From Bacteroidaceae bacterium (GTDB taxonomy: Bacteria > Bacteroidota > Bacteroidia > Bacteroidales > Bacteroidaceae), in contig JAFWXX010000036.1 in NCBI GenBank assembly GCA_017522915.1, positions 1 through 64,000 of the forward strand: 64,000 nucleotides of DNA, given 5' to 3'. Positions 4,029 to 58,132 of this stretch are shown here, one piece after another. Below the pieces are notes generated by a model, which did not search any database, was not told where the DNA came from, and was given only the letters and a program-made list of their open reading frames with translations. The first letter of the stretch is position 1. Every line of letters starts with the position of its first letter. A program made the position numbers and the translations under genes.

Positions 4029-5186
4029 TCAGGCAAGCAGTGCTGTAGCCAACTGCTCCATGGCTACAACATCGCTATCCTTCATGCGAGAGCGTATGGT
4101 AACCATAGGCTCTGCTATCTCAACCGACTTCATTCCCTCCAGCATTGAACGCATCACACGACCTGCCGTAGGTGCCCATGAGCCGTTTTCCACAATGGCA
4201 ACCTTGCGTTTCTGGAATGCCTTTATCTTGAGATGATGCAGGAAATCGTGCATAGGCGGGAACACATCGGCATCGTACGATGCAGCACATACGACCATAT
4301 GGCTATAACGGAAAGCATCCTCTACAGCCTCGGCCATGTCGCAACGGGAGAGGTCTGTTACAACGACCTTAGGCGCACCCTTTGCACGCAGTATCTCGGC
4401 AAGCCGGTTGGCTGCAACAGCAGTTCCGCCATGTATCGATGCGTACGCCACAAAGACACCTTCTGTTTCGGGTTCATACTTGCTCCATGTGTCGTACAGA
4501 CCTATATAATGAGCAAGATTATCGGCCAACACCGGACCATGAAGAGGGCATATTGTCTTTATGTCAAGCGTAGCAGCCTTCTTTAGAAGAGTCTGTACCT
4601 GTGTGCCGTACTTGCCGCAGATATTGAAGTAATAGCGTCGTGCCTCGCAATCCCATGAACCGCCATTGCATATTGCACCGAACTTGCCGAATGCGTCGGC
4701 AGAGAAGAGGACCTTCTCGCTCTGTTCGTACGAGACCATCACCTCAGGCCAGTGCACCATTGGCGCAACGAAAAACTGAAGCGTGTGCGTGCCCAGAGAG
4801 AGTGTATCACCCTCTTTGACAGCTATTCCGCAACCGGCAAAATCGACCCCTTCGAAAAACTGCGGCAACATCTTGAGAGCCGCTGCTGTTGCAACAACCT
4901 TTATCGAGGGGTACTTCCCTACTACCTCGGCTATAAGTGATGCATGGTCGGGCTCGGCATGCTGCACGACAAGATAATCGGGCTGACGGCCTGCGAGAGC
5001 ATTCTCTACATTAGCCCACCATTCCGTTCCCTTGCGTGCATCGGCAGTGTCCATTATGGCCACTTTATCATCAAGGATAACGTATGAATTGTATGCAATT
5101 CCATCCGGCACTGCATACTGGCTCTCGAAAAGGTCGATGTCAAGGTCATCGACACCTACATACTTTATTGTTGGTGATATTTCCAT
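4029..5186 (-). CDS. Flavodiiron protein (A-type oxygen/NO reductase)
   Basis: A 385-residue flavodiiron protein that reduces O2 to water, or NO to N2O, using electrons from rubredoxin or a similar donor; it protects anaerobes. The N-terminal metallo-beta-lactamase domain (about 1-240) has all diiron ligands: His76, Glu78, Asp80 and His81 in HAEPDH, then VHWPE, SADAFG and LHGP. The C-terminal flavodoxin domain (about 245-385) begins with VFVAYASIHGGT, the FMN phosphate loop, and has the ENGSWAPTAG segment. There is no C-terminal rubredoxin or flavin reductase domain, so it is class A. It appears monocistronic, converging on the peptidase gene. Confidence 0.9.
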   Translation of the reverse strand: MEISPTIKYVGVDDLDIDLFESQYAVPDGIAYNSYVILDDKVAIMDTADARKGTEWWANVENALAGRQPDYLVVQHAEPDHASLIAEVVGKYPSIKVVATAAALKMLPQFFEGVDFAGCGIAVKEGDTLSLGTHTLQFFVAPMVHWPEVMVSYEQSEKVLFSADAFGKFGAICNGGSWDCEARRYYFNICGKYGTQVQTLLKKAATLDIKTICPLHGPVLADNLAHYIGLYDTWSKYEPETEGVFVAYASIHGGTAVAANRLAEILRAKGAPKVVVTDLSRCDMAEAVEDAFRYSHMVVCAASYDADVFPPMHDFLHHLKIKAFQKRKVAIVENGSWAPTAGRVMRSMLEGMKSVEIAEPMVTIRSRMKDSDVVAMEQLATALLA

Positions 5187-5301
5187 AGTCTAAATATTGT
5201 ATAATACCTTACGAAGGTAACAAAAACTTAGTTCATGCACAACTTGCCGGGAAGGCAGCTGCAACCCGACAAGATTCTTTAACTTAAAATAGCCCCGTTT
5301 A

Positions 5302-5883
5302 TCAGAATTGCACCTCCGGTGCTTTCTCAGCACCCTCCTGCGCCTCGAAATAAGGGCGTTTCTCAAAGCCGAACATACCGGCAAGCAGGTTGCGCGGGAA
5401 TGTACGTATTGAGGTGTTGTAGCTTTTTGCCGCATCATTGAAGTTGCGTCGCTCCACGCTTATACGGTTCTCTGTACCTTCGAGCTGAGCCTGCAGTTCA
5501 AGAAAGTTCTGATTGGCCTTCAATTCGGGGTAAGCCTCTGTAATGGCAAGCAGACGGCCAAGAGCAGAACCGACCTCGCCCTGTGCCTTCTGGAACTCCT
5601 GCAACTTCTCTGGTGTAAGGTTGTCGGCATCGACAGTCACCTGTGTTGCACGTGTACGAGCCGAAATGACAGCATCGAGCGTCTCTTTCTCATGTGCAGC
5701 ATATCCCTTTACCGTATTGACAAGGTTAGGGATAAGGTCGGCACGACGCTGATACTGGTTCTCGACATTGCTCCATGCGGTACTTACAGCCTCATCGGCC
5801 TTTACCATTCCATTATAACCGGTTATACCCCAGATAGCCACAATGGCTACAACTGCAAGGATAATGATTGTTGACTTTTTCAT
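5302..5883 (-). CDS. LemA family protein
   Basis: A 193-residue LemA protein: a short cytoplasmic start, one membrane helix at about 5-25, then a long helical periplasmic domain with the family's motif around VENQYQRRADLIPNL. The start at 5883 (MKKST) is chosen because the upstream extension is the Gly-rich tail of the neighbour read in another frame. The biochemical role of LemA proteins is unknown. The gene follows the TPM protein by 34 bases, a pairing seen widely in bacteria and suggesting joint action in the envelope. An imperfect hairpin at 5243-5273 could end the transcript. Confidence 0.9.
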   Translation of the reverse strand: MKKSTIIILAVVAIVAIWGITGYNGMVKADEAVSTAWSNVENQYQRRADLIPNLVNTVKGYAAHEKETLDAVISARTRATQVTVDADNLTPEKLQEFQKAQGEVGSALGRLLAITEAYPELKANQNFLELQAQLEGTENRISVERRNFNDAAKSYNTSIRTFPRNLLAGMFGFEKRPYFEAQEGAEKAPEVQF

Positions 5884-5917
5884 TGCTTTTGATATTAATT
5901 GATTATTTATTGCTTTA

Positions 5918-6814
5918 TCAGAAACGGCTGCCGGCACCTCCGCCGCCGAAGCTGCCTCCGCCGAAACTGCCGCCACGGAAGCCCCCTCCGAAGCTGCCTC
6001 CGCCAAAACCACGGCCTATAGCCGCACCGCCGCCGAACGAATGACGGCTGTTGTCATCGGCATGCTCTTTACGGGTAAACGTGTAACCGCAGTTAGAACA
6101 ACGGTATGTATTCTCGCGAACTACATAACCGACACAACGCTGCACTATGCGCGAACTCACTCTCACAACCTCATGCTTGCCGCATTTGGGGCAACGGGTA
6201 CTGTACCACACAGCCAATGATATTATTCCAATACCTCCAAATATAAGGGACAGAAATATGACAAGTGCGACAATCTCGTCTTCGTCATCCTCGCCCAAGT
6301 TCTCCATGGAACCGTCAAGAACGCCGCACACGGCACGCACCCCCTCTACCATTCCGCTGTTCCAGTCATCATTGGCAAGATGCTCCACCATATACTTCTG
6401 CTGTATGCGCTTGCATATAGCGTCGGGCATTATACCCTCAAGACCATAGCCGGTTGAGAACTGTACACAGCGTTTATCGGTAGAAAGCAGGATTACAAGA
6501 CCGTTGTCACGCCCTTTCTCACCCACCCCGTTCTCCTTGCCAAGACGGTAGGCAAAGTCGAAACAGTCACCGCCCTCGATGCCGGTAAGAACAACAACAA
6601 TAGCTTGTATGCCGGTTTTCTCTTCCAGGGCATACAGCATGCTGTCCATAACAGCAACCGCCTCTTGGGAAAGGATATTGTCGGGATTGCTCACATAGCG
6701 GGTTCTGTCCATAAGATGAACCATAGGTACATCGCTCACCTTGTACTCTTTCGCCTGAACCATTGATAGTGGCAAAAGAGCAGCAAGCAACAGGATATAC
6801 AGACTTCTTTTCAT
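5918..6814 (-). CDS. TPM-domain membrane protein with zinc ribbon and Gly-rich tail
   Basis: A 298-residue envelope protein with a signal peptide (1-21) and a TPM domain (about 35-175, with YVSNPDNILS near its start). A transmembrane helix follows at about 182-205. Next comes a cytoplasmic zinc-ribbon-like segment with CPKC and CSNC pairs about 30 residues apart, then a C-terminal run of GGGSFGGG repeats. TPM proteins are found with LemA and are linked to envelope upkeep in plants and bacteria; the enzymatic role is not settled. It lies 5 bases downstream of the GH123 gene and 34 before lemA. The Gly tail makes GC-rich repetitive DNA at 5930-6010. Confidence 0.85.
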   Translation of the reverse strand: MKRSLYILLLAALLPLSMVQAKEYKVSDVPMVHLMDRTRYVSNPDNILSQEAVAVMDSMLYALEEKTGIQAIVVVLTGIEGGDCFDFAYRLGKENGVGEKGRDNGLVILLSTDKRCVQFSTGYGLEGIMPDAICKRIQQKYMVEHLANDDWNSGMVEGVRAVCGVLDGSMENLGEDDEDEIVALVIFLSLIFGGIGIISLAVWYSTRCPKCGKHEVVRVSSRIVQRCVGYVVRENTYRCSNCGYTFTRKEHADDNSRHSFGGGAAIGRGFGGGSFGGGFRGGSFGGGSFGGGGAGSRF

Positions 6815-6819
6815 TTGAA

Positions 6820-8499
6820 TTACATTCGGTTAAGCCCCTTGCGGAAGCCATTTACCATTTTCTCGCTATCGGTAGATATCTTCTTTATATCTATGCTCTT
6901 CAGCAATTTCTCAAGTGCCTTTACACGCGAGGCGTTTCCCTTTGCCTTAGCCTCTGCCAAAAGAATCTTGTACTTCTCGAACTGCTGGATTCCCTGCACA
7001 AGACGTTCCCAGCGTATTGAGCTTATGCTGAAAGGATAGATGACGTATGTGTCGCCTGCCGGCCATGCAGTGAAGCGTGAATCGGCCTCCGGAGTAACCG
7101 TCCAGCTGTTATAGGCCCAACGCAGATAGCCGTCGAGGCCTTTTGCAAGTGCCTCAAGAGCAATAAACTCAGCATCAGCAGGAGCTGTAAAGGTAAAAAG
7201 GTTGGGATACTCGGCACTGCAGCATGTGTAGTATGTCGAAACCTTACCCTGCTCTCTGCGCCTTGCTATAAGTTCCTGAGTGTATGCCCCGTATGCGAAT
7301 ATATCAAGGCAATAGTCGTATATATCGGCCTCAATCTCAGGGTGATAGTTTCCTGCCATTGATATCTTCATGCCTGGCGCATACTCCTTTATCACCTTTA
7401 TGGCAGCCTGCATCTGCTGCAAGCTTCGTTCGTCCATTGAGATGAATGTCCTGTCGAACCACCCCTTCTCCTTAAGATGTTTGGCGAAAGCACTCAGCAT
7501 GCCGCCCCAGAACTGTGCATACGCTTCGTCACCGGGTGCGCAGTTGATATACTTGTGCGTATGTGTTGCCTGGTCGTAGTAACGGAAAGAGAGTTTCCAT
7601 GGAATCATCGAGAAGCATGTTATCTCCTTGTCTATGCCGCACGACATCATGAACTCGACCCAGCGGTCGAAGATTGTGAAGTCGTAGAGCCATGTGCCGT
7701 CGGCCTTCTTTATCCATGTTACCATGCTGCCGAACGGGTCATATGTCTGCCCGTCCCAGGGACGGTCTATGAGAGTTGCTGTAATGGCCTTCTGGCCTGC
7801 AGATGCCAGTTTGAGCATGTATGGACGCAGAACCTCGAAGTGCTTGTCGCTCCATACCTCGACATTGTGGACACGGGCCACTGCATAAGGGTTCTGCCAT
7901 AGGTCGAGGTGGAAACTCCACTCCTTTGGAGAAGGCAATGTACGTCCCAGAACCTTGACCGAATAGCTGTATCTTGTCTTCTTGCCTTCACACTCAAGTT
8001 CCACATATCCCTTATACGTACCTGGAGCTGCATCCTGCGGCACCTGCACTGTAAGCCACAAGCCACGATAACCGCCCATGGGTACAATGGAAGGATTTTC
8101 ATCAGTGATACGGTCGGCAACAAGATTCTCGCCATACGCATCCACCTCATGCTTGCCGCAACCTGTAAACTTGTCAGTTATTACATATTGCACAAAACCG
8201 CCGACGACATTTGTCGAAGGTATCACATTGCTTCCGTTCCTAAGTTCGCTGAAACGATAGCCCACCTCCCTGTCGTTCATGGGAGTGGTTGGGATATCCT
8301 GACGGTTTGTTACAAGCAGCTGGAAATTCACACGTTCACCACGCCATGCAGCCGCCGTATTGACGGCAGTCGAGCGGACAGGAGTCCCGAAGTCCGCAGG
8401 ATAACGCTCGTCAATACAGCCCCAGCGAGCTGATAGCTGTGCAACTGACGGCAGCACCGATGCAAGCATCATGGCTGCCACGAAAATCTTCTTTACCAT
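6820..8499 (-). CDS. GH123-like beta-N-acetylgalactosaminidase (DUF4091)
   Basis: A 559-residue exported enzyme with a signal peptide (1-20), an N-terminal beta-sandwich (about 25-185) and a catalytic barrel (about 195-520). Known GH123 enzymes release terminal N-acetylgalactosamine from glycolipids and glycans by substrate-assisted catalysis with an adjacent Asp-Glu pair; here that pair is most likely Asp356-Glu357 in SMDERS. The family's length and domain order fit. The gene lies in a tight minus-strand set after a TonB receptor and a lipoprotein, which suggests host-glycan use, though no SusD partner is present. Substrate is inferred. Confidence 0.8.
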   Translation of the reverse strand: MVKKIFVAAMMLASVLPSVAQLSARWGCIDERYPADFGTPVRSTAVNTAAAWRGERVNFQLLVTNRQDIPTTPMNDREVGYRFSELRNGSNVIPSTNVVGGFVQYVITDKFTGCGKHEVDAYGENLVADRITDENPSIVPMGGYRGLWLTVQVPQDAAPGTYKGYVELECEGKKTRYSYSVKVLGRTLPSPKEWSFHLDLWQNPYAVARVHNVEVWSDKHFEVLRPYMLKLASAGQKAITATLIDRPWDGQTYDPFGSMVTWIKKADGTWLYDFTIFDRWVEFMMSCGIDKEITCFSMIPWKLSFRYYDQATHTHKYINCAPGDEAYAQFWGGMLSAFAKHLKEKGWFDRTFISMDERSLQQMQAAIKVIKEYAPGMKISMAGNYHPEIEADIYDYCLDIFAYGAYTQELIARRREQGKVSTYYTCCSAEYPNLFTFTAPADAEFIALEALAKGLDGYLRWAYNSWTVTPEADSRFTAWPAGDTYVIYPFSISSIRWERLVQGIQQFEKYKILLAEAKAKGNASRVKALEKLLKSIDIKKISTDSEKMVNGFRKGLNRM

Positions 8500-29725: not shown

Positions 29726-30733
29726 CTATTGTTGCTTGGCACGCTTTATCCTGTCAAACACGGTCTGGCGTGGATAACCTGTTAGATTTGCAATCTGTGG
29801 TGCCGAAAGACCAATCTTTAAAAGATAACACACGCGTAGCATTGGTTCGTTTATCCTTTTGAATTTTGCCTGAACCTCATATGTAAACTCTGGGAACAGC
29901 CTATCTATTGCGCCAAGAAGTTCTTTCCATCCGTCATCGTTGAGATGATATTTGCCTTTGGACGTTTTTTTGACTTTCTCAATTATGTCACCGTCCTCAC
30001 CTGCTATATCATTCATCAGCATCAATCTTGTAAGTTCGCGATTCTGTGCAACAAGTAATTTGAAATCCTCCTCAGCGCCCTGCAACTGTTTCGCTAGCCT
30101 TGAATTGGTAGCATTCAAGCCTTTAAGTTCTTGGGTCTTTTGCTCAATCTCTTGTTTCTCTTTTGCAATTTCAAAATCCTTTTTGGCTGCCAAAGCCTTT
30201 ACCTGCTTAATATTCTCTTCTTTGCTCAAAATCACATCAAGCAACTGTTTTTTGCGCCAAAAATAGAACATAGCACCACCAAGTAGCAGAATGACAGTAA
30301 CAGAGACTGCCAACATAGAGTTATACCTAAACTTTGTCGCCCTTTGCATCACCAAAGCCTCCTCTTCTTTGTCACGCCGGTATTGGAAGAAGTTCTTTGC
30401 GTTAGTTGTATGCTCAAGGTTTATTTTGTTTATTACAGTCTTGTTAGCATCAATGAATTTTATTGCATATTCTGCAGCCTTTTCATAATATTTTTGTGAA
30501 ACATAATATTGCGTCAACCATTGAGCAGCATCATATTGGGATTCTATACGAGAGGTGGTATTAAAATGCTTTCGCATTATGATTGCTGCGCTATCGACAG
30601 AAATAATCTGTTCATAATAGATTGCAAGATTAACAAGATAGTTGAACGGTAGTTCCTCATTGCGTAGTCTTGTTAGTGAATTATAACATGCTGTCGCTTC
30701 ATCTCTGTGCCCCAACAAAGCGTAATCTCCCAT
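29726..30733 (-). CDS. C-terminal part of a TPR-membrane-HTH regulator
   Basis: The downstream part of a gene broken by one base at 30786-30790. The frame is open upstream of this ATG, back into the break. It carries the last TPR-like helices (1-110), a membrane helix (about 137-158), a long cytoplasmic coiled coil (about 160-240) and a C-terminal helix-turn-helix (about 300-335, with LSAPQIANLTGYPRQTVFDRI). With the upstream part it makes a lipoprotein-like periplasmic TPR sensor with a cytoplasmic DNA-binding end, a plan found in Bacteroidetes. It is AT-rich like its island and divergent from the secreted-protein genes it may control. The exact family name is not known to me. Confidence 0.7.
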   Translation of the reverse strand: MGDYALLGHRDEATACYNSLTRLRNEELPFNYLVNLAIYYEQIISVDSAAIIMRKHFNTTSRIESQYDAAQWLTQYYVSQKYYEKAAEYAIKFIDANKTVINKINLEHTTNAKNFFQYRRDKEEEALVMQRATKFRYNSMLAVSVTVILLLGGAMFYFWRKKQLLDVILSKEENIKQVKALAAKKDFEIAKEKQEIEQKTQELKGLNATNSRLAKQLQGAEEDFKLLVAQNRELTRLMLMNDIAGEDGDIIEKVKKTSKGKYHLNDDGWKELLGAIDRLFPEFTYEVQAKFKRINEPMLRVCYLLKIGLSAPQIANLTGYPRQTVFDRIKRAKQQ

Positions 30734-30780
30734 TGCTGCTGCTATTATGTCGGAATTGCTTTTATCTATGTTTGTATAGT

Positions 30781-31422
30781 TTAAATTTTTGTAACATAGC
30801 TATAATATTTTATTGCATTAGCAGTATCGTTTGTTGCAATATAACAACTTGCTATATTCATATATGTTCTTTCATTTGCAGTACCATTCTTTTCTGCTAT
30901 ATCGAGCTGTTTAAGTGCGGCATTTAAGGCCTCGGTATAATCAAGTTGTGTTCCATACAAATAGCTTAATTGAGAGTATGTATTTTGTAATAGCGTTTTG
31001 TCCGTGTTTTCATTTTTCTCTGCAATTTCAGCAGATTCAAGAAATTTGGATACAGCATTTGGATAGTCATTAAGATCCCTGTAAACACTACCCATATAGT
31101 AATAGACCTCTTGTTTCTCAATCTCTGTACCGCTCTTCTCAAAGAAGTTGCAAACCATTTTAATGGTGTCATCAGATGTGTGCATAATATACGCTTTATC
31201 ACGTAGTCTTATTTCAAGCAGCGCTAGTTTATTGCACATGTACTCAGTTTCATTATCAAACAATGGCTTTATGGAGTCGAGTTTTTGCATTGCAACATTT
31301 GGCAAAGTATCACCCATTAGCTTTATGTCGTCTAACCGCATTAGAAGAACTTTGTTTTCTTGCTTGAAACACGAAGCAAAAAATAGCGATGAAAACATTA
31401 AAATCTGTATAAGATATTTCAT
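30781..31422 (-). CDS. N-terminal part of the same TPR regulator
   Basis: A 213-residue frame with a signal and lipobox (FFASCFKQ, Cys at about 18) followed by TPR-like helices (EKQEVYYYMGSVYRDLNDYPNAVSKF, ERTYMNIASCYIATNDTANAIKYY). It stops at TAA just after an A5 run (30786-30790 on the minus strand). Adding one A would give YVTKNLNYTNIDKSNSD and join it smoothly to the downstream frame. The break may be a true mutation, a phase-variable tract, ribosomal slippage on AAA, or a sequence error. If real, this part alone would be a periplasmic lipoprotein without DNA-binding domain. Confidence 0.7.
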   Translation of the reverse strand: MKYLIQILMFSSLFFASCFKQENKVLLMRLDDIKLMGDTLPNVAMQKLDSIKPLFDNETEYMCNKLALLEIRLRDKAYIMHTSDDTIKMVCNFFEKSGTEIEKQEVYYYMGSVYRDLNDYPNAVSKFLESAEIAEKNENTDKTLLQNTYSQLSYLYGTQLDYTEALNAALKQLDIAEKNGTANERTYMNIASCYIATNDTANAIKYYSYVTKI

Positions 31423-31621
31423 AATAGTTTGTCTGCATTTTACTTAAATGCTAAAATAGTATAAATATTGAATACAAGTAATCTTTTTTGTCCGAATGCA
31501 TCCGACATTATTTTGTTTTTTATTACCTAATAAACTGCAGCTTGCTTAATATATTAAAATACCGTAAAGTAAAAAATGGTAATTCCTTGAAAATCTTCGG
31601 ATACAGTCGGACAAGATTTTC

Positions 31622-31652
31622 TTTGATGAATATAACGCCACTTCTACTTTTG
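31622..31652 (+). promoter_or_regulatory. Promoter of the exported-protein operon
   Basis: TTTG (31622-31625), a 19-base spacer, and TACTTTTG (31645-31652) match the consensus exactly. The upstream in-frame ATG at 31626 lies inside this promoter, which argues that the real start codon is further down (ATG at 31675). Confidence 0.6.
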
Positions 31653-32093
31653 CAAAAAACCAAAACAAAAAACTATGAAGTTTTTTTCAACAAGGCGTCT
31701 TTATGCTTCTCTTTACTATTGTTAAGTGGTGCTGTTTATGCACAATCTGATGACACAAAACAAGTTGTGTTGGAGAAAAAAATGAAAGGAAATGATTTTA
31801 TTGATAAAAAAGGAAAGGCTGAAAGAAACTTAGATATTTATCCTATTTTGCCTACGGTATTATATAATGCAACGAATAGTTACATATTAATAACTAGTCA
31901 TTATGTAACATTTGAATCGGTTACATATTATATAGTGGATGAATTGGGTTTTGTACAACAGCAAGGTGAAATGACATTGCAAAAAGGTGATGAGATTGGG
32001 TTGCATCTATCACAGTTATCTATTGGCTCGTATAAAATAGCACTTGATTTCTGTGGAGATTGCTTTCAAGGTGAATTTAAAATTGAACAGTAG
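31626..32093 (+). CDS. DUF3244-like exported protein with possible frame break at its start
   Basis: First gene of the AT-rich cargo operon. As it stands the frame from ATG 31626 gives 155 residues with an odd N terminus before a good signal peptide (LCFSLLLLSGAVYAQ). The ATG at 31675, just after the promoter, is in another frame but would read Met-Lys-Phe-Phe-Phe-Asn-Lys into the same signal peptide if the T7 run at 31681-31687 had eight T. The mature domain (about 100 residues) is beta-rich with GDEIGLHLSQLSIGSYKIAL, like Bacteroidetes DUF3244 proteins, small exported beta-sandwiches of unknown role. The true start is uncertain. Confidence 0.6.
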   Translation: MNITPLLLLQKTKTKNYEVFFNKASLCFSLLLLSGAVYAQSDDTKQVVLEKKMKGNDFIDKKGKAERNLDIYPILPTVLYNATNSYILITSHYVTFESVTYYIVDELGFVQQQGEMTLQKGDEIGLHLSQLSIGSYKIALDFCGDCFQGEFKIEQ

Positions 32094-32118
32094 TTTTTAA
32101 TAATAAAAATTTATAGCT

Positions 32119-33318
32119 ATGAAAAAAGTTAATTTGTTTTTACTTTTTATATTAATCCCATTTATGGGTTCGTTCGCACAATTCCGCGTTTCTGCAGACG
32201 GAACAGCAAATGTTTCAACCACTAGTGGCACAAGCGCATTTACTGGGACTCACAATTCGATAGGAATTAAAGGAATCCGTACAAGTTATAATACAGACTG
32301 GGGATATGGTATTTACGGAGAAAGTCAGAACTTTTATACTTTGTATAGCGTTGGTGTTGCCGGCGTAGCAACTACCTCTAGCGGCAATAGTTATAATTAT
32401 GGTCGTGCATACGGTGTCCTGGGAGAAGCCCAATTGGCTGAAAATGGTTATAACTATGGTGTCTTTGGTAGGCTTGGTGGAGACGAATTTGGAGCTGCGA
32501 TATACGGAACAACAATAAAATCTGATAATGGAGTTCAAATAGGTGGGCAATATGCTGGATATTTTAATGGAAATGTATATGTGACTGGTGAACTTACAAG
32601 CACTATAATGTACGCTTCGCATATTTCTTGTAATTCTCTGTATGTAGCGTCATCAGACACAGAGACCTCTTCCAATATGGCGCTAACAAATAATGAAACA
32701 GAAAATGTCTCTAACAAAATTGCGACATTGAGTGCTATCAGGACGCATTCAGAGAATGAAGTTTCAGTGGTTAAATCAGAAAATCCTGCTGCATCCTCCT
32801 CATTCTCGATACAGCAAATGGGCGATATTCACTATTCACTCTCCGCTGAACAAATGGAAGCGGTTTATCCGGAATTGGTTTATGCAGACAATGAAGGGAG
32901 AAAAATGGTAAATTATACAGACTTAATTCCTCTTTTAGTACAAAGCATTGCAGAATTAAAAGCTGAAATTGCAGTGCTTAAAGGAACTATGTCCAAAGAT
33001 GTCATTAGCAAATCACGATCTAATTCAACAGAAATCATGTCTAACTTTGATACGGAAACTGAATATTTGTTGCAGAATGTTCCAAACCCATGGAGTACTA
33101 GTACAGATATAACTGTAAATGTGCCAAAAGATGTTGTTAATGCAGAACTATGTATTTATGATTTGAACGGTACTTTGATTTATTCTAAAAATATACTGCA
33201 ATGTGGTGTATCCTGTTTGTCGCTTTCGGCTTCAGACTTTGAACCGGGGATATACATATACGCTCTAATAGCGGATGGCTATATTGTTGATACTAAAAGG
33301 ATGATTGTAGAAAAATAG
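32119..33318 (+). CDS. S74-like/tail-fibre-like protein with T9SS sorting domain
   Basis: A 399-residue exported protein with a signal peptide (ending SFAQ). Residues about 25-165 are short Gly-Tyr repeats (GYGIYGES, GVAGVA, YGVLGEA, YGVFGRL, YAGYFNGNVYVTG), as in phage tail-fibre stalks. Residues 238-288 resemble the distal part of the S74 chaperone domain (AVYPELVYADNEGRKMVNYTD, then a helix). The catalytic Ser-Lys pair region is not conserved, so self-cleavage is unlikely. Residues 316-399 are a type A T9SS sorting domain (NVPNPW, IYDLNGTLIY, PGIYIYAL). It is probably a surface-attached trimer; partner genes lie 25 bases upstream and 48 downstream. Confidence 0.75.
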   Translation: MKKVNLFLLFILIPFMGSFAQFRVSADGTANVSTTSGTSAFTGTHNSIGIKGIRTSYNTDWGYGIYGESQNFYTLYSVGVAGVATTSSGNSYNYGRAYGVLGEAQLAENGYNYGVFGRLGGDEFGAAIYGTTIKSDNGVQIGGQYAGYFNGNVYVTGELTSTIMYASHISCNSLYVASSDTETSSNMALTNNETENVSNKIATLSAIRTHSENEVSVVKSENPAASSSFSIQQMGDIHYSLSAEQMEAVYPELVYADNEGRKMVNYTDLIPLLVQSIAELKAEIAVLKGTMSKDVISKSRSNSTEIMSNFDTETEYLLQNVPNPWSTSTDITVNVPKDVVNAELCIYDLNGTLIYSKNILQCGVSCLSLSASDFEPGIYIYALIADGYIVDTKRMIVEK

Positions 33319-33366
33319 AATTCTATTTTTTATCTCAGTCAATGTTATATATAACATCGGTATGTT

Positions 33367-35274
33367 ATGAAAAAAAATTTAAATGTGATAATTGGGCTTA
33401 TTATTATGTTGCCAACAGCACTGTTTGCAAGCAATGAGTTCAACATGTTCGCTCCTATGCATAAACTATCTCGCAGTATATCGCATAATTTGGTCTTGCA
33501 AGGCAGTGATACCATAATCATTGATAACGGAAAGATTGCTATAAAAGGATTTTCAATAACGGCAGATATAATACAAAAGACAGAACGTAGTTTTGTAAGA
33601 GTTATCTTAGAAGATATAGCCGGTCAGGAATTTCTTGTTGGTGAGTGTTCTCGAATCTTTAATGATAAAGATACGGTTTCTTGGAGTAATTATAGCGAAG
33701 AAACATGTAACTTAGATAGCATTTTCCCAAAGTTCTTGAAAATAATAGCCATAGAAGCTAGTGTCATTCTGCACAATGTGAATATATTTGAATCAACCGA
33801 ATCCTCACCTCAAAAAGCATTGACTTTGAATCGTGATTCATTGCAACTTATGCAAATAGAGAAAAAAGTTGAAGCGATAAATCGCTATAATATTAATCAT
33901 AATTTATTATGGAGAGCCGGAATTACTAGTGTTGCTATGAAACCATACGCAGAAAGGAAACAACTTCTTGGTATAACAAATGACAGTTGTAATACAGCAG
34001 GCTTTGAATATTATAAGTCTGGAATTTTTGTTATGCCGGGAAGTTTTGATAATGATACACTTGAAACGAGAAGTCTCAATGATACCAATGTCTATGTAGA
34101 AAGTTTTGATTGGCGTAACAGACATGGCAAAAACTGGATTACACCATCTAAAACACAAATAAGACTTACTTGCTGGGCTTTTGCGGCTGCTAGCGTTGTG
34201 GAAAGTTATATTAATTTGTATTTTAATAGGAACTTAAATTATGATTTATCAGAACTGGATTTTGTCATGAATGCAAGTGCAAATTCTGGATTAGAAGGTG
34301 GATTTGTCAATGATGCATTATATTATACAAAAAATTGCGGAGTGGTTAAAGAAGATTGCTATCCATTTGTAGTATCATACGACACAATAGAAAAGTGTTT
34401 TGACCCGGAAGAGATAATCAAAATTGAGGATTATAATATAAAATATTACGTAAGTGATAATGAGATTAAACAGAAACTAATAAAACATCCAGTAAGTTTA
34501 GATCTTTTTTGGCAGGATGGTGCTGGGCATAGTGTATTATTTGTAGGATATAATAAAATTGCCGCAGGAGACAGTATAATGCTTAAATCATATTTAGATA
34601 TTAATCCTGTTTGGACTATTGTTAATGAAAATAGCGATTATGTCGATAAAACGATGTGGATTATAAAAAATTCTTATGGCAAAGACTGGGGTATTGATGG
34701 CTACGCATATATCATTACAAACAATTTGAAGAAAAATATAAGAATGTGCTCATTGAATGGTGCAATAAGCAGTCTTTTGTACAATGATAATGATATATTA
34801 TGTACTGATAACGATGGTGACGGTTATTATTATTGGGGAGTAGGAGAAAAACCTGAACACTGTCCTGCATGGGCTTTGGAAGAAGCAGATGGAGATGATA
34901 ATGATTATACAAAGGGTCCAATGAATAAGTATGGATATTGCCAGGAAAATTTACCACATAATGATACTATATTTGTTACTACTGATACTACTTGGGATGA
35001 ACGGATATATTTGTATAAAAATGTTGTAATTTGCAAGAATGCAACCCTTTTAATATCCAATATTGTCACATTCTATAAAGGAACTTCTATAACAATTGCT
35101 GATGGTGGACAATTGATTGCTGATAATTGTAGTATTGATAATGTTATACTAAAAACAGAACCAGGTTCTAAAATTTTATTAAAAAATAATGGAATTATAA
35201 AACATAATAAAGAAATTTGTTTTACTTTATCGAACGGTTCAGAACTGGAAATAATCAGTGGAATGATTGAATAG
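33367..35274 (+). CDS. Papain-like (C1) protease with beta-helix end, exported
   Basis: A 635-residue protein with a signal peptide (1-20), an N-terminal region of unknown fold (about 25-240) that may be a propeptide, and a C1A papain domain (about 248-465). The active site is complete: oxyanion Gln264, Cys269 in TCWAF, His388 in GAGHSVL and Asn435 in KNSYGKDWG. A Ca-binding-like segment rich in Asp and Gly follows (CTDNDGDGYYYWG, about 478-530), then one to two turns of a beta-helix. It ends without the T9SS sorting domain usual in such proteases, so it is either periplasmic or uses another route. AT-rich, in the cargo operon. Confidence 0.82.
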   Translation: MKKNLNVIIGLIIMLPTALFASNEFNMFAPMHKLSRSISHNLVLQGSDTIIIDNGKIAIKGFSITADIIQKTERSFVRVILEDIAGQEFLVGECSRIFNDKDTVSWSNYSEETCNLDSIFPKFLKIIAIEASVILHNVNIFESTESSPQKALTLNRDSLQLMQIEKKVEAINRYNINHNLLWRAGITSVAMKPYAERKQLLGITNDSCNTAGFEYYKSGIFVMPGSFDNDTLETRSLNDTNVYVESFDWRNRHGKNWITPSKTQIRLTCWAFAAASVVESYINLYFNRNLNYDLSELDFVMNASANSGLEGGFVNDALYYTKNCGVVKEDCYPFVVSYDTIEKCFDPEEIIKIEDYNIKYYVSDNEIKQKLIKHPVSLDLFWQDGAGHSVLFVGYNKIAAGDSIMLKSYLDINPVWTIVNENSDYVDKTMWIIKNSYGKDWGIDGYAYIITNNLKKNIRMCSLNGAISSLLYNDNDILCTDNDGDGYYYWGVGEKPEHCPAWALEEADGDDNDYTKGPMNKYGYCQENLPHNDTIFVTTDTTWDERIYLYKNVVICKNATLLISNIVTFYKGTSITIADGGQLIADNCSIDNVILKTEPGSKILLKNNGIIKHNKEICFTLSNGSELEIISGMIE

Positions 35275-35303
35275 TTTTGCAAAACTTGAAATAAAACAAT
35301 ATT

Positions 35304-36101
35304 ATGAAAAAGTTATTTGCTTTATTGTTTTTACTCGCATTTTTCACAAATGTGATGTCTCAACACCATCCTGTTTTTGAAGAAGGAAAATGCTGGAGTG
35401 TAGATATGACTAAATGGGGCGAGGAAGTGCTATATACAAGTACATTTGTTGTTCGTGGTGATTCAGTTGTGAACGGTAAAAGATACAAGAAAGTTTATGT
35501 TACCCATAAAGATGATTTAAAGGATTTAGAGCTCTACTATTTGGGACGCGATGAGAAAGGTGTTGCATACATACTTGAAGATGAAATTGAATATTGCTTT
35601 TTTGATTTCAACCTTCGGGCAGGTGACGAATTTGTATATGAATTGGGAACACGTAGCTCTGCAGCAGATGACTGCAAATGGATTGTGACTGATGTCTCTT
35701 CGATAGAAACCGCCGATGGATTGATTCGGAAATGCTTTGATGTTGAAGTGTATGAGTACTGGTCAGATGCAGAAGAACCAGGATGGTACAAAGCACCATA
35801 TCCTTTTACATATATCGAGGGGATTGGAGAGGCTGACAACGGGCTTTTTGTTGATTATTGCATAAGCTGCACGGGCGGTGGCATTCGCAAGTTACGTTGT
35901 CTGCACAACGTCTACGGCAATCACATCTACGGCACTGGCGAAAATTGCAATAAACTGTCGGTTGATGCAACCAAAGGAGAGCAAGAAAACGAAGGAGCCT
36001 TGTACGACCTTAAAGGAAATAAGTTGAATATTAAACCGCAAAACGGAGTATATATACAGGCTGGTAAAAAGTATCTGAAAAAAAGAGGCAGTTCATTCTA
36101 A
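35304..36101 (+). CDS. Exported protein with short T9SS-like C terminus
   Basis: A 265-residue protein with a signal peptide (1-19, ending VMSQ). The body (about 20-225) is beta-rich with scattered Cys (FEEGKCWSVD, CISCTGGGIRKLRC). The end (about 234-260) has the pattern YDLKGNKLNIKPQNGVYIQAGKKYLKK, which resembles the last strands of a type A sorting domain and is common at the ends of secreted Prevotella-type proteins, but is shorter than a full domain. Function unknown. Last gene of the AT-rich operon. Confidence 0.65.
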   Translation: MKKLFALLFLLAFFTNVMSQHHPVFEEGKCWSVDMTKWGEEVLYTSTFVVRGDSVVNGKRYKKVYVTHKDDLKDLELYYLGRDEKGVAYILEDEIEYCFFDFNLRAGDEFVYELGTRSSAADDCKWIVTDVSSIETADGLIRKCFDVEVYEYWSDAEEPGWYKAPYPFTYIEGIGEADNGLFVDYCISCTGGGIRKLRCLHNVYGNHIYGTGENCNKLSVDATKGEQENEGALYDLKGNKLNIKPQNGVYIQAGKKYLKKRGSSF

Positions 36102-36147: not shown

Positions 36148-36183
36148 ACTTAACCCCGAAGTCCACCGACCTCGGGGTTAAGT
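36148..36183. terminator. Bidirectional terminator at the end of the island
   Basis: ACTTAACCCCGA (36148-36159) pairs perfectly with TCGGGGTTAAGT (36172-36183); TTTT follows at 36187-36190. It separates the cargo operon from the converging microprotein gene. Confidence 0.75.
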
Positions 36184-36219
36184 TGATTTTAGGGCCTCTT
36201 GTATGTCCAGATTCTTTGT

Positions 36220-36378
36220 CTACCTTTTCTTCTTGTTCTCCAGGTAAATACGGACAAAGAGAAGTATCAGAGACACAAGTATGACAAGAGCCGCAACATA
36301 GGTTTTGTCATCACCTTCAAATTCTTCAAGCAGTCGGCGACCGACAGTGCAATGTATACGGATGATATTTGTTATCAT
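36220..36378 (-). CDS. 52-residue single-pass membrane protein
   Basis: A short minus-strand frame that is easily missed. ATG at 36378 gives MITNIIRIHC, a charged helix (GRRLLEEFEGDDKTY), one hydrophobic helix (about 28-45, VAALVILVSLILLFVRIYL) and a basic end ENKKKR before the stop. The clear hydrophilic-helix-positive layout (type with Lys-rich cytoplasmic end) and the terminator just beyond its stop make it likely real. No family recognised. It is the only gene in the 450 bases between the cargo operon and hflX. Confidence 0.6.
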   Translation of the reverse strand: MITNIIRIHCTVGRRLLEEFEGDDKTYVAALVILVSLILLFVRIYLENKKKR

Positions 36379-36491
36379 AGTAGTCCAATCGGGTTAATAC
36401 AATGCAATGATAACTATTTTCTGCGAAATATTACTATCATTCACCTTTGATGTAGCTAAATCCTGCACTTGCAGTAAAAAAACAGAGCAGT

Positions 36492-36523
36492 TTTGTTTTT
36501 TCGCACGTTTATAATTATCTTCG
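36492..36523 (+). promoter_or_regulatory. Promoter of hflX
   Basis: TTTG (36492-36495), a 20-base spacer and TATCTTCG (36516-36523), one base from the -7 consensus, 27 bases before the start codon. Confidence 0.6.
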
Positions 36524-36550
36524 CGTAAATTTGGATAGGACTATATTTGG

Positions 36551-54391: not shown

Positions 54392-57300
54392 CTATTTATT
54401 GTTTACGACTATTATTTTTATTGTCTTGGAAGAGGAGACAGCACCTCCTGTTGCCATATATGCACGGGCAAGATAAACGCCTGCAGGCAACGGTTGCCCG
54501 CCTTGAGCCACTCCACTCCACTCATATTCGAAGACAAAACCATCACTTACACCCTTCTGTGTATTGCTCCATAGTATCTGTCCTTGCAAATTGAACACAT
54601 CCAAAGTAACTTCCATTTCACTCAACGGACGGTTGTGGGTCAAGACAAACTTAGCAGGACTTCCGCTGACTATCGGAGAACCGGTCACCTTCAAATCAAT
54701 GAAATCGGGAGCCAAAGTCGGTTCAACAAAGAATGTCAGATTTGCAACAGACGAGTTGTTATAGAGGTCCCATGCGCGCAGCATCAGAGTATGCTCGCCA
54801 GCAGAGAGTTCTCTCAACGGCATCATTATAGTACCCCGTGTATAATCACCCACAACCGGGATATAAGCATCGTTCAGATTGTATGTATGCTCCGGGTTAT
54901 TATCCACAACAGCAACAATATCATGACCGATTCCTGTACCGACAGTATTTATTCCATTCTCGTCATAAAGTTCAGCCCACAGGCATGGAGTAGCATTTAC
55001 TTCATCGCCGTCAACAAAAGAAGGGGTATTGAGATAGAGTTTTATTTCGGGACCGCTGCCATCGTTCACTATATTGTCAGCCGTACCGGAAACCAGGAAA
55101 TTATCGTAGTGACCCTGAGCCGAGCATGTATAGGAAGAGTCAACAGCAAACAGATTAAGCATTCCGTTGGCATCGGCATAGCTTATATCCATAGGAACAG
55201 GTATGGAAACTGAGAACTTGCCTGCAACTATAGAGTCGCTTCCCGAGAACAGGGTCTTATTATATGCCGTGTACTTATAACAGCCAAGACCTGTATTGTC
55301 ACGAGTCTCAACCTCTTCGGCACAGTCGAACAAAGTTGTCGATAACGTACCGGCAAAGCCCTCGGCAACATTGCCATTGCGGTCAACCACATATCCCTCG
55401 ACTTTCAGGAGACCGCCGGCAGAGACCTTGCCTACAGCTGTCGCATCCGAATCATTGAAGCGGTCAACAACAATTCTGTATTCAGGAGTCTTCAGGCGAA
55501 GAGCCGGGTCACCGAGAAGAATGAACTGCAGTTTATTTTCGCTAAGGTCGCTTGAATGCGCAATTACGCCACATTTAGCCAAACGTACCGCATCACCTAC
55601 AGCAACAGGTTTTCCGCTGTTCACCGAAGACAAAAGATGCTTTGAGAACTCCTTGTTAATGACTGAGTTATAGCTCTGCAGCACCGTTCTTGTAGTAGTA
55701 AACAATCCTATGGCACCGCCATTAGGGTTCAATATGGCAGCTTCTGCAACAGAATTGTCTAGCATGTCGAAAGGACCTATGTCACATGAGGCTGTAACCC
55801 AGAAAGGAATGCGAGGAGAGTTAACAACTGCCATATCAGAGGCTTTCCACACCATCTCGTGCGACAAGAGATTGGCGCTTCCGTGACCGGAATAGTTGAC
55901 AACCAACGCACCCTTCTCCAACCTGTCGTATATTGCCTCTGTAACAACCGGATAACGGTTTCCTGTTGAAGAGGCCTCTACCGGATAATCGTCCCAATAT
56001 ATACGCTCCACCATATACGATGGAAAAGTCTGCTCCATGACAGCTGCAATGACATCGGCATCCTTCATGTGCTGATTCGGCATATTGGGGTCACCGTCAT
56101 CGCCAAGCAGCACAACAAGATTCTGCCATGCACCGGCATTCCTGTTCTGCATGTATGCTATCAGCTTGTCAACCACAGCATTGGCATCAGCAACAGTCTG
56201 AGCTGGAATGCGCCCGACACCAATATCGACCTTGTCACGCAAATGGTCACCGCCTTCATTGTCATCGAGATATCCCATATAGTCCTCCAGGACATACGAT
56301 TTTATGGCATCAACAGAATTCAAAGACTCATAGCAAAGGAGATAATCCTCCTGATTGCGTCCCTGGAATGTTATAAGACGGTTATCATACCACGCATCGC
56401 CGAACAGAAGAAGATACCTTGGAGCCTCTTCGGCTGTAGTGGCCTTGTCGTAAAGCATCTTCATCAGTCTGCGATATGCAGTAACATCGGGAGTTCCCGA
56501 AGAGAACTCGTTATAAACCTGCTGTGCAGTTACTACAGCAACTGTAAGGCTGTCCATAGAACGATGTGCCTCGGCCAGACGTTCTGCCGCAGCCATAAAC
56601 TTGCCGTTAGACGGAACTATTATCACCATATCGGTCTGTCCTAAGGAATGAAGATTCTGATTAGGGACATCTCCCAGCACCTTTACCTTAGGAAAATCGC
56701 CCTTAACATTCACAGCGATATAATTTTCATTATAATTTGCAGAAGCGACGACCTTATACACCGAACCGTCAAGAGTTCCCGGCAATTCCTTTATTGCCGA
56801 AGCATCACCGACAGACCACACTTTTGTATCGGCATTGCAGTTTTCAATCCTGAACGTCGCATAACCGCTGTATTGCGAACCACGGAATTCGGTCTGCGAG
56901 CCACGGAGAGCAAGCTTCCTTGTAACATTAAGACGTATATAATCGAGATAACCGGCAACAGCCTGGTTTGCAACATTATGAGTTAATTTGATAACCGGGT
57001 CATCGGCCAGGCCCGTGATATCAAAACGGCCGGACACGATTTTGCCGACCTCACCCGACACGGCCCTTGTAACAGTAAGCGTACCTACCTGCTCGCTTCC
57101 CAATCCAATGCTTACACGGCTGATTTCTTCGCCGCTCGTAGCAAAGGAAAGGTCTATGGTTCCTTTTTCACCGGAAACACCGGCAACAGGCATCTTGTAA
57201 CTCACAGCACGTCCTTTGGAGTAATCGTATTTATCAACCAGAACACGTCCGTAAGGACAGAGAGCCTTCGACTCTTCCTCATGAAGGATGTAATCGGGAT

Positions 57301-58132
57301 AAGTGTCATATTCACGCGAGGGAGACGACTCTACACTCTCTTTCGGGAATGACATCGGAGTCTCATCGCTTTCTGTCAGGAAATAACAGCCATATTCGGA
57401 ATATACATTCCGGGAATGCACGAAACGCCCGCCGCTATACTCCCAGCTGATTGTTCCGTTAGCATAGAACAGCACATAGTTGCTTTCGCGCCACAAAGGT
57501 ACCTCGCAAAGGTCATCGACAAGAGTCTCTATATTCTTTTCGGGCAGGATATGCCCGCCATAGCCATAAAGACGCACTTTTGCCGGATTGCCGAAACCCA
57601 TACGTTTCAATTCGTCATTCGTTATCTTATGTACCCCGTTCTCAGTTACGGCAACACGAACCCATTTGCCAGATGCAAGCAGAGAGTTGTCGGCATATCT
57701 CACGTCCTCGCTTCCGGCCGATGCCTTTGCCCTCTGAGGAAGCAATTTCCTGTCAACGACAATCTTGTATGAGTTTATGCGGTAATAGCAGCCGTTCTTC
57801 ATCACAACAGGCCAGAATGCCACATCGAGTTGGGGCTTTTTTGCCTGCACAGCCACATAGCACTCCACTTCGGGGAATTCAGGCAACTCACCGTACTTTT
57901 CTTTTATGGAATATGCTTTCAGCTCTTCGGCCGTCATCTTCTGGAATTCGGGATATTCAACGTGTGCCGAATAGCTGTAGCTTGCATAATCGGCCGGGAG
58001 GTCTATCACATCGGTGCACAACGGAAGTATCGTATCTCCTTTTTGCCTTGTCCAGTCAACCGAAACGAACTGGGCATGTACCGTCGTCGCACATGCCAGC
58101 AATGCACAGAATATAAATCTTGTCATCTTCAT
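54392..58132 (-). CDS. porU: Type IX secretion sortase PorU
   Basis: A 1246-residue exported Cys protease of the C25 (gingipain) family. PorU removes the sorting domain of T9SS cargo on the cell surface and attaches the protein to lipopolysaccharide. A signal peptide ends VHAQ; a long beta N-terminal part (about 25-500) precedes the C25 domain (about 510-860), with the catalytic His in NYSGHGSAN and the Cys in VTASCDIGPFD. Ig-like repeats follow, and a C-terminal sorting-like domain (PLPAGVYLARAYM ... KTIKIIVV). Slightly longer than the P. gingivalis protein. Just upstream is the FAH-family gene. Confidence 0.93.
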   Translation of the reverse strand: MKMTRFIFCALLACATTVHAQFVSVDWTRQKGDTILPLCTDVIDLPADYASYSYSAHVEYPEFQKMTAEELKAYSIKEKYGELPEFPEVECYVAVQAKKPQLDVAFWPVVMKNGCYYRINSYKIVVDRKLLPQRAKASAGSEDVRYADNSLLASGKWVRVAVTENGVHKITNDELKRMGFGNPAKVRLYGYGGHILPEKNIETLVDDLCEVPLWRESNYVLFYANGTISWEYSGGRFVHSRNVYSEYGCYFLTESDETPMSFPKESVESSPSREYDTYPDYILHEEESKALCPYGRVLVDKYDYSKGRAVSYKMPVAGVSGEKGTIDLSFATSGEEISRVSIGLGSEQVGTLTVTRAVSGEVGKIVSGRFDITGLADDPVIKLTHNVANQAVAGYLDYIRLNVTRKLALRGSQTEFRGSQYSGYATFRIENCNADTKVWSVGDASAIKELPGTLDGSVYKVVASANYNENYIAVNVKGDFPKVKVLGDVPNQNLHSLGQTDMVIIVPSNGKFMAAAERLAEAHRSMDSLTVAVVTAQQVYNEFSSGTPDVTAYRRLMKMLYDKATTAEEAPRYLLLFGDAWYDNRLITFQGRNQEDYLLCYESLNSVDAIKSYVLEDYMGYLDDNEGGDHLRDKVDIGVGRIPAQTVADANAVVDKLIAYMQNRNAGAWQNLVVLLGDDGDPNMPNQHMKDADVIAAVMEQTFPSYMVERIYWDDYPVEASSTGNRYPVVTEAIYDRLEKGALVVNYSGHGSANLLSHEMVWKASDMAVVNSPRIPFWVTASCDIGPFDMLDNSVAEAAILNPNGGAIGLFTTTRTVLQSYNSVINKEFSKHLLSSVNSGKPVAVGDAVRLAKCGVIAHSSDLSENKLQFILLGDPALRLKTPEYRIVVDRFNDSDATAVGKVSAGGLLKVEGYVVDRNGNVAEGFAGTLSTTLFDCAEEVETRDNTGLGCYKYTAYNKTLFSGSDSIVAGKFSVSIPVPMDISYADANGMLNLFAVDSSYTCSAQGHYDNFLVSGTADNIVNDGSGPEIKLYLNTPSFVDGDEVNATPCLWAELYDENGINTVGTGIGHDIVAVVDNNPEHTYNLNDAYIPVVGDYTRGTIMMPLRELSAGEHTLMLRAWDLYNNSSVANLTFFVEPTLAPDFIDLKVTGSPIVSGSPAKFVLTHNRPLSEMEVTLDVFNLQGQILWSNTQKGVSDGFVFEYEWSGVAQGGQPLPAGVYLARAYMATGGAVSSSKTIKIIVVNNK

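Follow-up and report, generated by a model that had tools for sequence, protein, structure and literature searches.

A regulator–DUF3244 head with predicted operator repeats and varying cargo in an AT-rich cassette of a Bacteroidaceae bacterium

Introduction

Membrane-spanning one-component regulators that go with a small partner are already known, and in those of the ToxR/CadC type the DNA-binding domain is an N-terminal winged helix-turn-helix (HTH). Here we analyse a stretch of 64,000 nucleotides from a Bacteroidaceae bacterium (positions 1 to 64,000 of contig JAFWXX010000036.1, assembly GCA_017522915.1; hereafter the window), in which an AT-rich cassette between dprA and hflX carries a regulator with tetratricopeptide repeats (TPR), a membrane helix and an HTH, facing an operon for four exported proteins, the first of the DUF3244 type. 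The genome that contains the window comprises 2.41 Mb in 60 contigs and is 92% complete. The operator, the recognition-helix code and the DUF3244 pairing of this regulator family appear to be the new part; none of the three was found in searches of an open-access library, nor was a function of DUF3244, though the structures 3d33, 4g5a and 3sd2 have been solved.

The head of the cassette has its closest described counterpart in the MACPF cluster of B. thetaiotaomicron, where the TPR protein BT_3442 adjoins BT_3441, a homologue of the DUF3244 protein BVU_0276 (3d33), and exported proteins follow; however, the cargo consists of MACPF proteins and lipoproteins, and the accessible part of that paper describes no HTH, operator or regulatory role (PMC2954219). 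BT_3442 is the namesake of BT3442_fam (NF053779), which is matched, far under its cut-off of 940 bits, by the N-terminal piece of the window regulator (30.8 bits, E 1.2e-7) and by the intact regulator of locus L154 (130.5 bits, E 7.7e-38); that of L144 (43.3 bits) is also under it (L, G and C numbers are our own handles for loci, genomes and contigs). Likewise BT_1867, a DUF3244 protein of known structure, is adjoined, by locus number, by the TPR protein BT1868 (PMC10434189, as excerpted). ToxR/ToxS and VtrA/VtrC also join a membrane-spanning DNA-binding regulator to a periplasmic partner whose gene lies close by, and their cassettes evolve fast (PMC9214523, in the sections available); in our family, by contrast, a TPR array serves as the sensor, the HTH stands at the C-terminus, and the role of candidate partner falls to an Ig-like DUF3244 protein encoded at the head of the target operon. 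In the control of the type IX secretion system (T9SS) of Porphyromonas gingivalis by PorA/PorXY-SigP, a small exported protein has been proposed to pass a signal from the envelope on to a membrane sensor, but there a two-component system and a sigma factor are used, and PorA differs in its N-domain and ends in a true T9SS tail domain (PMC7712824, partial text). Finally, TPR-domain genes stand in two Bacteroidales clusters for ribosomally synthesised and post-translationally modified peptides (RiPPs), and our regulator is joined to RiPP-type genes in L098 and, judging by the neighbours, in L137 and L147; the available portion of that description names no operator and has no mention of 'DUF' (PMC10352776).

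Results and Discussion

Predicted operators at the two divergent promoters

The reading that we prefer, with a probability of about 0.65, is that the regulator is predicted to bind tandem repeats at both divergent promoters and would activate itself and the facing operon, which encodes the DUF3244 protein and three predicted exported proteins that probably act at the surface. The genes and sites concerned, with their strands, are the following.

29726..30733, minus: regulator, C-terminal piece, with the end of the TPR part, membrane helix, coiled coil, HTH and recognition helix PRQTVFDR (open reading frame, ORF; regulator profile E 4e-127)
30781..31422, minus: regulator, N-terminal piece, with lipoprotein-type signal and TPR repeats (ORF; Pfam TPR_12 E 4.8e-10; regulator profile E 1e-92)
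31451..31458, minus: TATTTTAG, a −7-like box of the regulator promoter that departs from TAnnTTTG at one base and lies 30 bp from the regulator-side repeat pair
31489..31505, plus: predicted regulator-side operator TGTCCGA-ATG-CATCCGA, half-sites 10 bp apart
31597..31613, minus: predicted operon-side operator TGTCCGA-CTG-TATCCGA, half-sites 10 bp apart
31622..31652, plus: operon promoter of Bacteroides-type consensus, TTTG at 31622-31625, 19 bp, TACTTTTG at 31645-31652
31675..32093, plus: DUF3244-type exported protein, first operon gene (family profile E 2e-48), with a frame break before the DUF3244 part (from 31743)
32119..33318, plus: P4, exported protein with a T9SS type A sorting domain (NCBIfam TIGR04183)
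33367..35274, plus: P5, exported protein of the papain family (C1), with an Asp-rich and a C-terminal repeat-like part (PF00112 E 2e-22)
35304..36101, plus: P6, exported protein with a short T9SS-like tail seen by eye (ORF; P6-like profile)

An earlier note on this DNA, made from the letters alone, had already pointed to a consensus promoter before the operon, and it is indeed in place when the published Bacteroides-type consensus (PMC7366714, consulted in part) is applied. At both divergent promoters of the window the repeat pairs lie 30-31 bp before the −7 box. The score used for the operators rewards paired 7-bp half-sites 10 bp apart together with an inverted pair at the other promoter, with no sequence preset; the arrangement in the window reaches z 6.8, with 0 of 300 shuffles equalling it. 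Fifty-six regulator loci were examined (window, L022, L095-L107, L114, L125-L164), and z was above 3 in 32 of the 52 regions upstream of a regulator, compared with 6 of the 144 control regions, while a repeat period of 10 was the best among 8-13 in 35/52 and 25/144, respectively. L101, L107 and L138 fell short of z 3 solely owing to a wrong automatic start, and of the 19 readable loci that were added once the idea had been formed (L145-L158, L160-L164), 6 exceeded it. When the whole genome was searched with the operator pattern, allowing at most one mismatch, three matches were obtained, namely both window promoters and a cassette on contig C32.

The distance to the promoter was examined in the 35 loci with four half-sites, counting TAnnTTTG-like boxes with at most one mismatch: in 31 of them the target-side pair ends 31 bp (27 loci) or 32 bp (4 loci) before such a box, whereas 7.5% of the shuffles fall within 29-33 bp of one. 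The regulator-side pair stands 30-32 bp from the −7 box in 22 loci and 41-43 bp in 7. In the class with a WRW helix (L129, L131, L133-L136) the regulator-side pair was observed 41-48 bp from the −7 box rather than 31, about one helical turn further away. A position just upstream of the −33/−7 elements is the usual place of an activator and, because the predicted operator is found there, activation is proposed. It is unlikely, instead, that the regulator binds these sites as a repressor whose release by a signal would turn the cargo on: covariation supports binding and not its sign, and the different geometry of the WRW class, with its seven loci at 41-43 bp, would suit repression, but the near-fixed 31-32 bp of the target-side pair speaks for an activator.

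Recognition helix and half-sites

The recognition-helix octamer (PRQTVWDR and its variants) was recognisable in 44 loci, and half-sites were obtained in 38 of them, 34 automatically, three by template (L096, L097, L130) and one by hand (L022); the remaining six are L132, L137, L147, L151, L157 and L160. Among the later-fetched loci with a recognised octamer, 5 of 9 gave half-sites. The half-site frames were anchored on bases 3 and 7, both of which lie outside the covariation test.

Residue 2 of the helix fits base 2 of the half-site in 38/38 loci (R-G 25, K-G 4, P-A 4, I-C 5), and residue 7 fits base 6 in 37/38 (D-G 9, V-A 4, F-A 1, Y-A 1, N-C 6, R-C 16). For residue 3, V or A goes with T at base 5 (6/6), and T (8/8) and Q (19/22) go with C there; moreover, residue 8 covaries with base 4. 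The mutual information of these four residue/base pairs in the 34 automatic loci was reached in 0 of 5000 shuffles, a signal that kinship inflates. Close relatives are instructive: the C-terminal piece of the window regulator and the regulator of L101 are 80% identical over 308 columns, and the former has D with CCGA, the latter V with CTAA; in the same way, L099 has V with CCAA and its sister L107 has D with CCGA. In a structure model of the intact paralogue encoded on contig C32 (L095), residues 2 and 7 would be positions 541 and 546, where the recognition helix (predicted at 541-555) begins. On the sequences compared, the helix/half-site rule is valid for part of the regulator family, and not for distant HTH classes. 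The control of the operon by the regulator, which had been guessed from the layout, thus gains support from the matching repeat pairs and from the covariation of helix and half-site, both being properties of the sequence.

A recurring head with varying cargo

With the own genome included, the regulator was matched in 21 of the 44 genus genomes at E 1e-3 and in 45 of the 399 family genomes at E 1e-30, the latter search scoring 3 candidates per genome. A DUF3244-family profile, seeded from 10 loci, gave 24 matches among 2380 ORFs in 67 loci; 22 of these stand divergent beside a regulator, 10 of the 22 being seeds, and the other two are found in L155, on the same strand as the regulator, and, weakly, in L161. 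Starting from DUF3244, 30 loci were fetched from 251 family genomes and five were left out (L190 and L193 at contig ends; L194, L195 and L197 with the domain inside larger ORFs, L194 having a regulator neighbour); a gene matching the regulator profile adjoins the stand-alone DUF3244 gene in 23 of the 25 loci with readable surroundings (not in L180 and L183). Many of these loci have both genes on one strand, with the regulator first. In L100 and L106 the operator is present and no DUF3244 gene was found.

The full set was found in L022 (G007:C14, from a Bacteroidaceae assembly of goat cecum), where regulator, DUF3244 gene, P4, P5 and P6 follow the order of the window between antiporter-like and uvrB-like genes (names by eye), and again in L219 and L224, as well as in L025 and L218 as far as the contig end. 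It recurs in other genera and at other sites, and the four proteins form the co-occurring set for which the earlier note proposed a search. The P5 profile matches 14 of the 399 family genomes, own included. The neighbourhood was read over 17 distinct P5 loci in the family, of which L023 and L065 are partial; four loci outside the family (L026, L027, L028, L030), the partial L210 and same-contig duplicates (L198, L200, L213, L214) were dropped from these counts. A P4-like gene directly precedes P5 in 13/15 readable loci (not L216 and L221), and a P6-like gene directly follows it in 14/15 (not L024). The regulator and the DUF3244 gene stand before P4-P5 in 6 of 11 readable loci (window, L022, L025, L218, L219, L224).

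Elsewhere the same head is followed by other genes: an RHS-repeat protein in L099 (by Pfam) and in L107 and L105 (by eye), a C10 protease with a Spi-type inhibitor domain in L101, P4-like genes in L150 and L152 (by eye), and, in L098, a RiPP-like cluster whose products include an outer-membrane barrel besides a C39-VKOR and a LanC-like protein. In the latter locus (4140-8495, minus strand) the DUF3244 gene, the C39-VKOR-thioredoxin protein and the LanC-like protein are accompanied by a glycosyltransferase-like gene and by a 91-aa peptide with a GG-type leader, both seen by eye. Thus, as judged from gene content, the regulator-DUF3244 pair is a recurring head and its cargo varies (C1, C25 and C10 proteases, RHS proteins, RiPP-like clusters). 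That the first operon gene is of the DUF3244 type, and that the pair heads other cargo elsewhere, goes beyond what the earlier note contained.

Several observations weigh against the preferred reading. No z above 3 was obtained in 20 of the 52 regulator regions, no such operator site was found in the distant HTH classes and in the PRSSAHRL class, and L143 violates the residue-7 rule (D-A). When the tree was computed from the sequence outside the helix, 4, 2, 3 and 2 independent pairs had support for the four residue/base combinations; the base moves along in 3, 2, 3 and 2 of them and never the opposite way, yet no test reaches 0.05, since the independent pairs are too few and partly the same rows. 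The reversed operator pattern likewise matches the genome three times and, being equally frequent, it leaves the placement of the sites as the only telling feature of that search. The P4 of L022 gave no Pfam match at E 0.1. In the window the regulator and DUF3244 genes are each frame-broken. Lastly, P4-P5 occur without the regulator and the DUF3244 gene in 5 of the 11 readable loci (L024, L029, L215, L217, L221), as would be expected if the layout were accidental, that is, an island of unrelated genes with a regulator acting elsewhere; but the matching repeat pairs at both promoters, the covariation of the helix and the recurrence of the whole set in other genera make an accident very improbable.

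The regulator protein and the frame breaks

All the parts formerly described for the regulator, i.e., lipobox, TPR, membrane helix and HTH, are encoded on the minus strand, though not in a single frame: the protein is divided over two ORFs in different frames, with the break near 30786-30790, a run of T that reads as A on the coding strand. The layout of TPR, membrane helix and HTH was taken from the model of the intact paralogue L095 (mean pLDDT 88), which has a lipoprotein-type start, a TPR solenoid and then one long helix, made up of the membrane and coiled-coil stretch, with the HTH at the C-terminus. This topology would leave the TPR outside and the HTH inside. According to the model, sensor, membrane helix and DNA-binding domain are joined in one chain, as in the ToxR/CadC type; the window regulator would work like that type without being a member of it, because its HTH is C-terminal and, in the model, helical.

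In a similar way the four consecutive plus-strand genes are present, but the first is not intact, as the first ATG past the predicted transcription start (31675) is out of frame with the DUF3244 coding sequence. Its product is predicted to form the Ig-like sandwich of the solved DUF3244 proteins. On Pfam PF11589 the window copy scores 21.4 bits (E 2.6e-4) and that of L152 21.8 bits, under the curated cut-off of 25 bits, and the own paralogue in L095 scores 29.2 bits, over it.

Each of the two frame breaks may be genuine or may come from a local fault of the assembly. No ORF among the 19 of the congener G030 that match the window (one of them an hflX shadow ORF) does so in two frames, so that general assembly noise is unlikely, local faults still being possible. 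These data allow the view that the cassette is decaying here, with the regulator and DUF3244 genes as true pseudogenes and a cargo that is silent or leaks, independently of what the family does in other genomes; we rate its chance as a little short of even. Two separate breaks in adjacent genes, against none in the 19 flank ORFs, point in this direction, as do the regulator of the congener L107, which is likewise split, and the C-terminal remnants of the regulator in G042 (L108) and G016 (L109), with 74% and 69% identity over 76 and 52 residues, which look as if the cassette had been lost there. By contrast, conservation is good in both regulator pieces, no damage is seen in P4, P5, P6 or the two repeat pairs, AT-rich runs are prone to assembly error, and the genome has an intact paralogue on C32 with the same residues 2 and 7 in its recognition helix. 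In L022 the regulator and the DUF3244 gene are single open frames. If the breaks are real, the operon could be silent or could be driven by the C32 paralogue.

The paralogous cassette on C32 (L095, 5577-17947) lies tail to tail with a folK-like gene, and after its DUF3244 gene come a HATPase/PocR-domain protein, a response-regulator-like gene and a KAP NTPase; in L096 and L105 the regulator is at the same kind of site. A short variant of the regulator (348 aa), with the same kind of HTH, was observed in L110 (4086-5132) and L113 (7798-8844), where it faces a 1014-aa gene with a receptor-like end and no DUF3244 gene was seen.

Cargo proteins

P4 counts as T9SS type A cargo by its sorting domain and by the T9SS genes of the genome. 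The domain scores over the cut-off of TIGR04183 (26.9 bits, cut-off 23) but under that of PF18962 (24.8 bits, cut-off 27). The short T9SS-like end of P6 is visible by eye and has no counterpart among profiles, as P6 gave no Pfam or NCBIfam match, sorting-domain profiles included; in P5 no T9SS tail was recognised. SprA is encoded on contig C13 and in 44/44 congeners, and the sortase PorU in the window (54407-57679, minus strand; NF033707, 1042 bits) and in 42/44 congeners. From these features, P4 would be exported via T9SS, and perhaps P6. Peptidase_S74 (chaperone of endosialidase) was found in the P4 homologues of L025 (1.6e-12) and L029 (8.4e-14), and no match to this profile was obtained in the P4 of the window or of L022.

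P5 was formerly called an active-looking papain protease, and its sequence agrees: besides the PF00112 match, the triad C269-H388-N435 is in place and invariant in 12 alignment rows (two of them identical), so that P5 is a putative papain-type protease of family C1. In L111 (3518-8462, minus strand) a Peptidase C25 gene, of the gingipain family and not papain-type, was observed between P4-like and P6-like genes. The cargo could be nutritional, a secreted protease set digesting dietary or host protein rather than a weapon, and to this we would give somewhat less than even odds. The exchangeable part between P4 and P6 is in fact a protease (C1, or C25 in L111), and the named carriers come from the herbivore gut, but elsewhere this head is followed by RHS proteins and RiPP-like clusters and, in B. 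thetaiotaomicron, by the MACPF proteins described in the consulted part of PMC2954219. By analogy, the company of the head at other loci leans to antagonism.

The insertion site

The sharp turn to AT-rich composition between dprA and hflX was borne out by the GC profile: the 6.4-kb block (29726-36101) has 34.9% GC compared to 46.8% in the remaining window, and each of 225 other stretches of equal size has at least 44.4%. In all 34 relatives with both genes on one contig, the dprA-hflX gap measures 74-2228 bp, and in 20 of them it is below 450 bp, where the cassette set cannot fit; protein searches of those contigs revealed no homologues of P5, P4 or the regulator between the two genes in any of the 34. 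The block is thus an insertion, as had been supposed, with its left edge directly behind dprA (29710) and its right edge at about 36216, where a spacer common to G039 and G011 starts. Two further features lie at this side.

36148..36183, no strand: inverted repeat whose 16-nt arms (94% complementary) enclose 4 nt, a possible operon end
36216..36550, no strand: native spacer before hflX, common to relatives (blastn to the G039 and G011 gaps)

The earlier note would have been contradicted by the same genes lying, with native composition, between dprA and hflX in all relatives, or by the four genes not co-occurring elsewhere; since the set is absent from the 34 gaps and co-occurs at other loci, neither was found. 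The meaning given to the DprA neighbourhood, on the other hand, was not upheld, as related cassettes sit at other sites. On sequence grounds, a lineage-specific regulator-plus-cargo module is a supported description of the block.

The dprA-hflX spot is variable, because several relatives have other single genes there. By eye, an exported protein of similar start was seen in the gaps of L031-L033, L035, L036, L038 and L040; L048 has a sigma-factor-like gene there, L052 a gene for a membrane protein, and L058, L061 and L064 a gene for a long lipoprotein. Before hflX of the window (~36216-36450, minus strand) a short frame with a hydrophobic stretch and a Lys-rich end, again by eye, resembles one in the G011 gap (L035), and it is perhaps a small native membrane protein.

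Conclusions

In the mechanism that we propose, the regulator would bind the 10-bp-spaced repeats at both divergent promoters and, once bound, would activate its own gene and the facing operon. Its TPR domain, lying outside, would sense the state of the envelope. The exported DUF3244 protein, which is the best candidate since it is the recurring first gene, could be a partner or a feedback signal of the regulator, comparable with ToxS or PorA. P4, P5 and P6 would likely act at the cell surface, and the cargo may serve to compete with neighbouring cells or proteins, or to digest them. A wider proposal, tentative and short of an even chance in our judgement, is that regulator and DUF3244 form a 'co-component' switch of Bacteroidota, in which the DUF3244 protein is the signal read by the TPR sensor; the pair would move between loci and command exchangeable cargo for antagonism (T9SS-borne cysteine proteases, RHS proteins, RiPPs, pore formers), two to three helix residues would spell the operator, and the wiring of uncultured genomes, including cross-talk with paralogues such as that on C32, would be readable from sequence.

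If this is true, DUF3244, a domain with solved structures, would acquire a role, and the TPR-membrane-HTH family of gut Bacteroidaceae would look like a command unit for exported cargo that can be swapped. A residue-to-base code would make operators and targets predictable in the genomes of unculturable organisms, and the promoters and genes named here would be available for direct tests.

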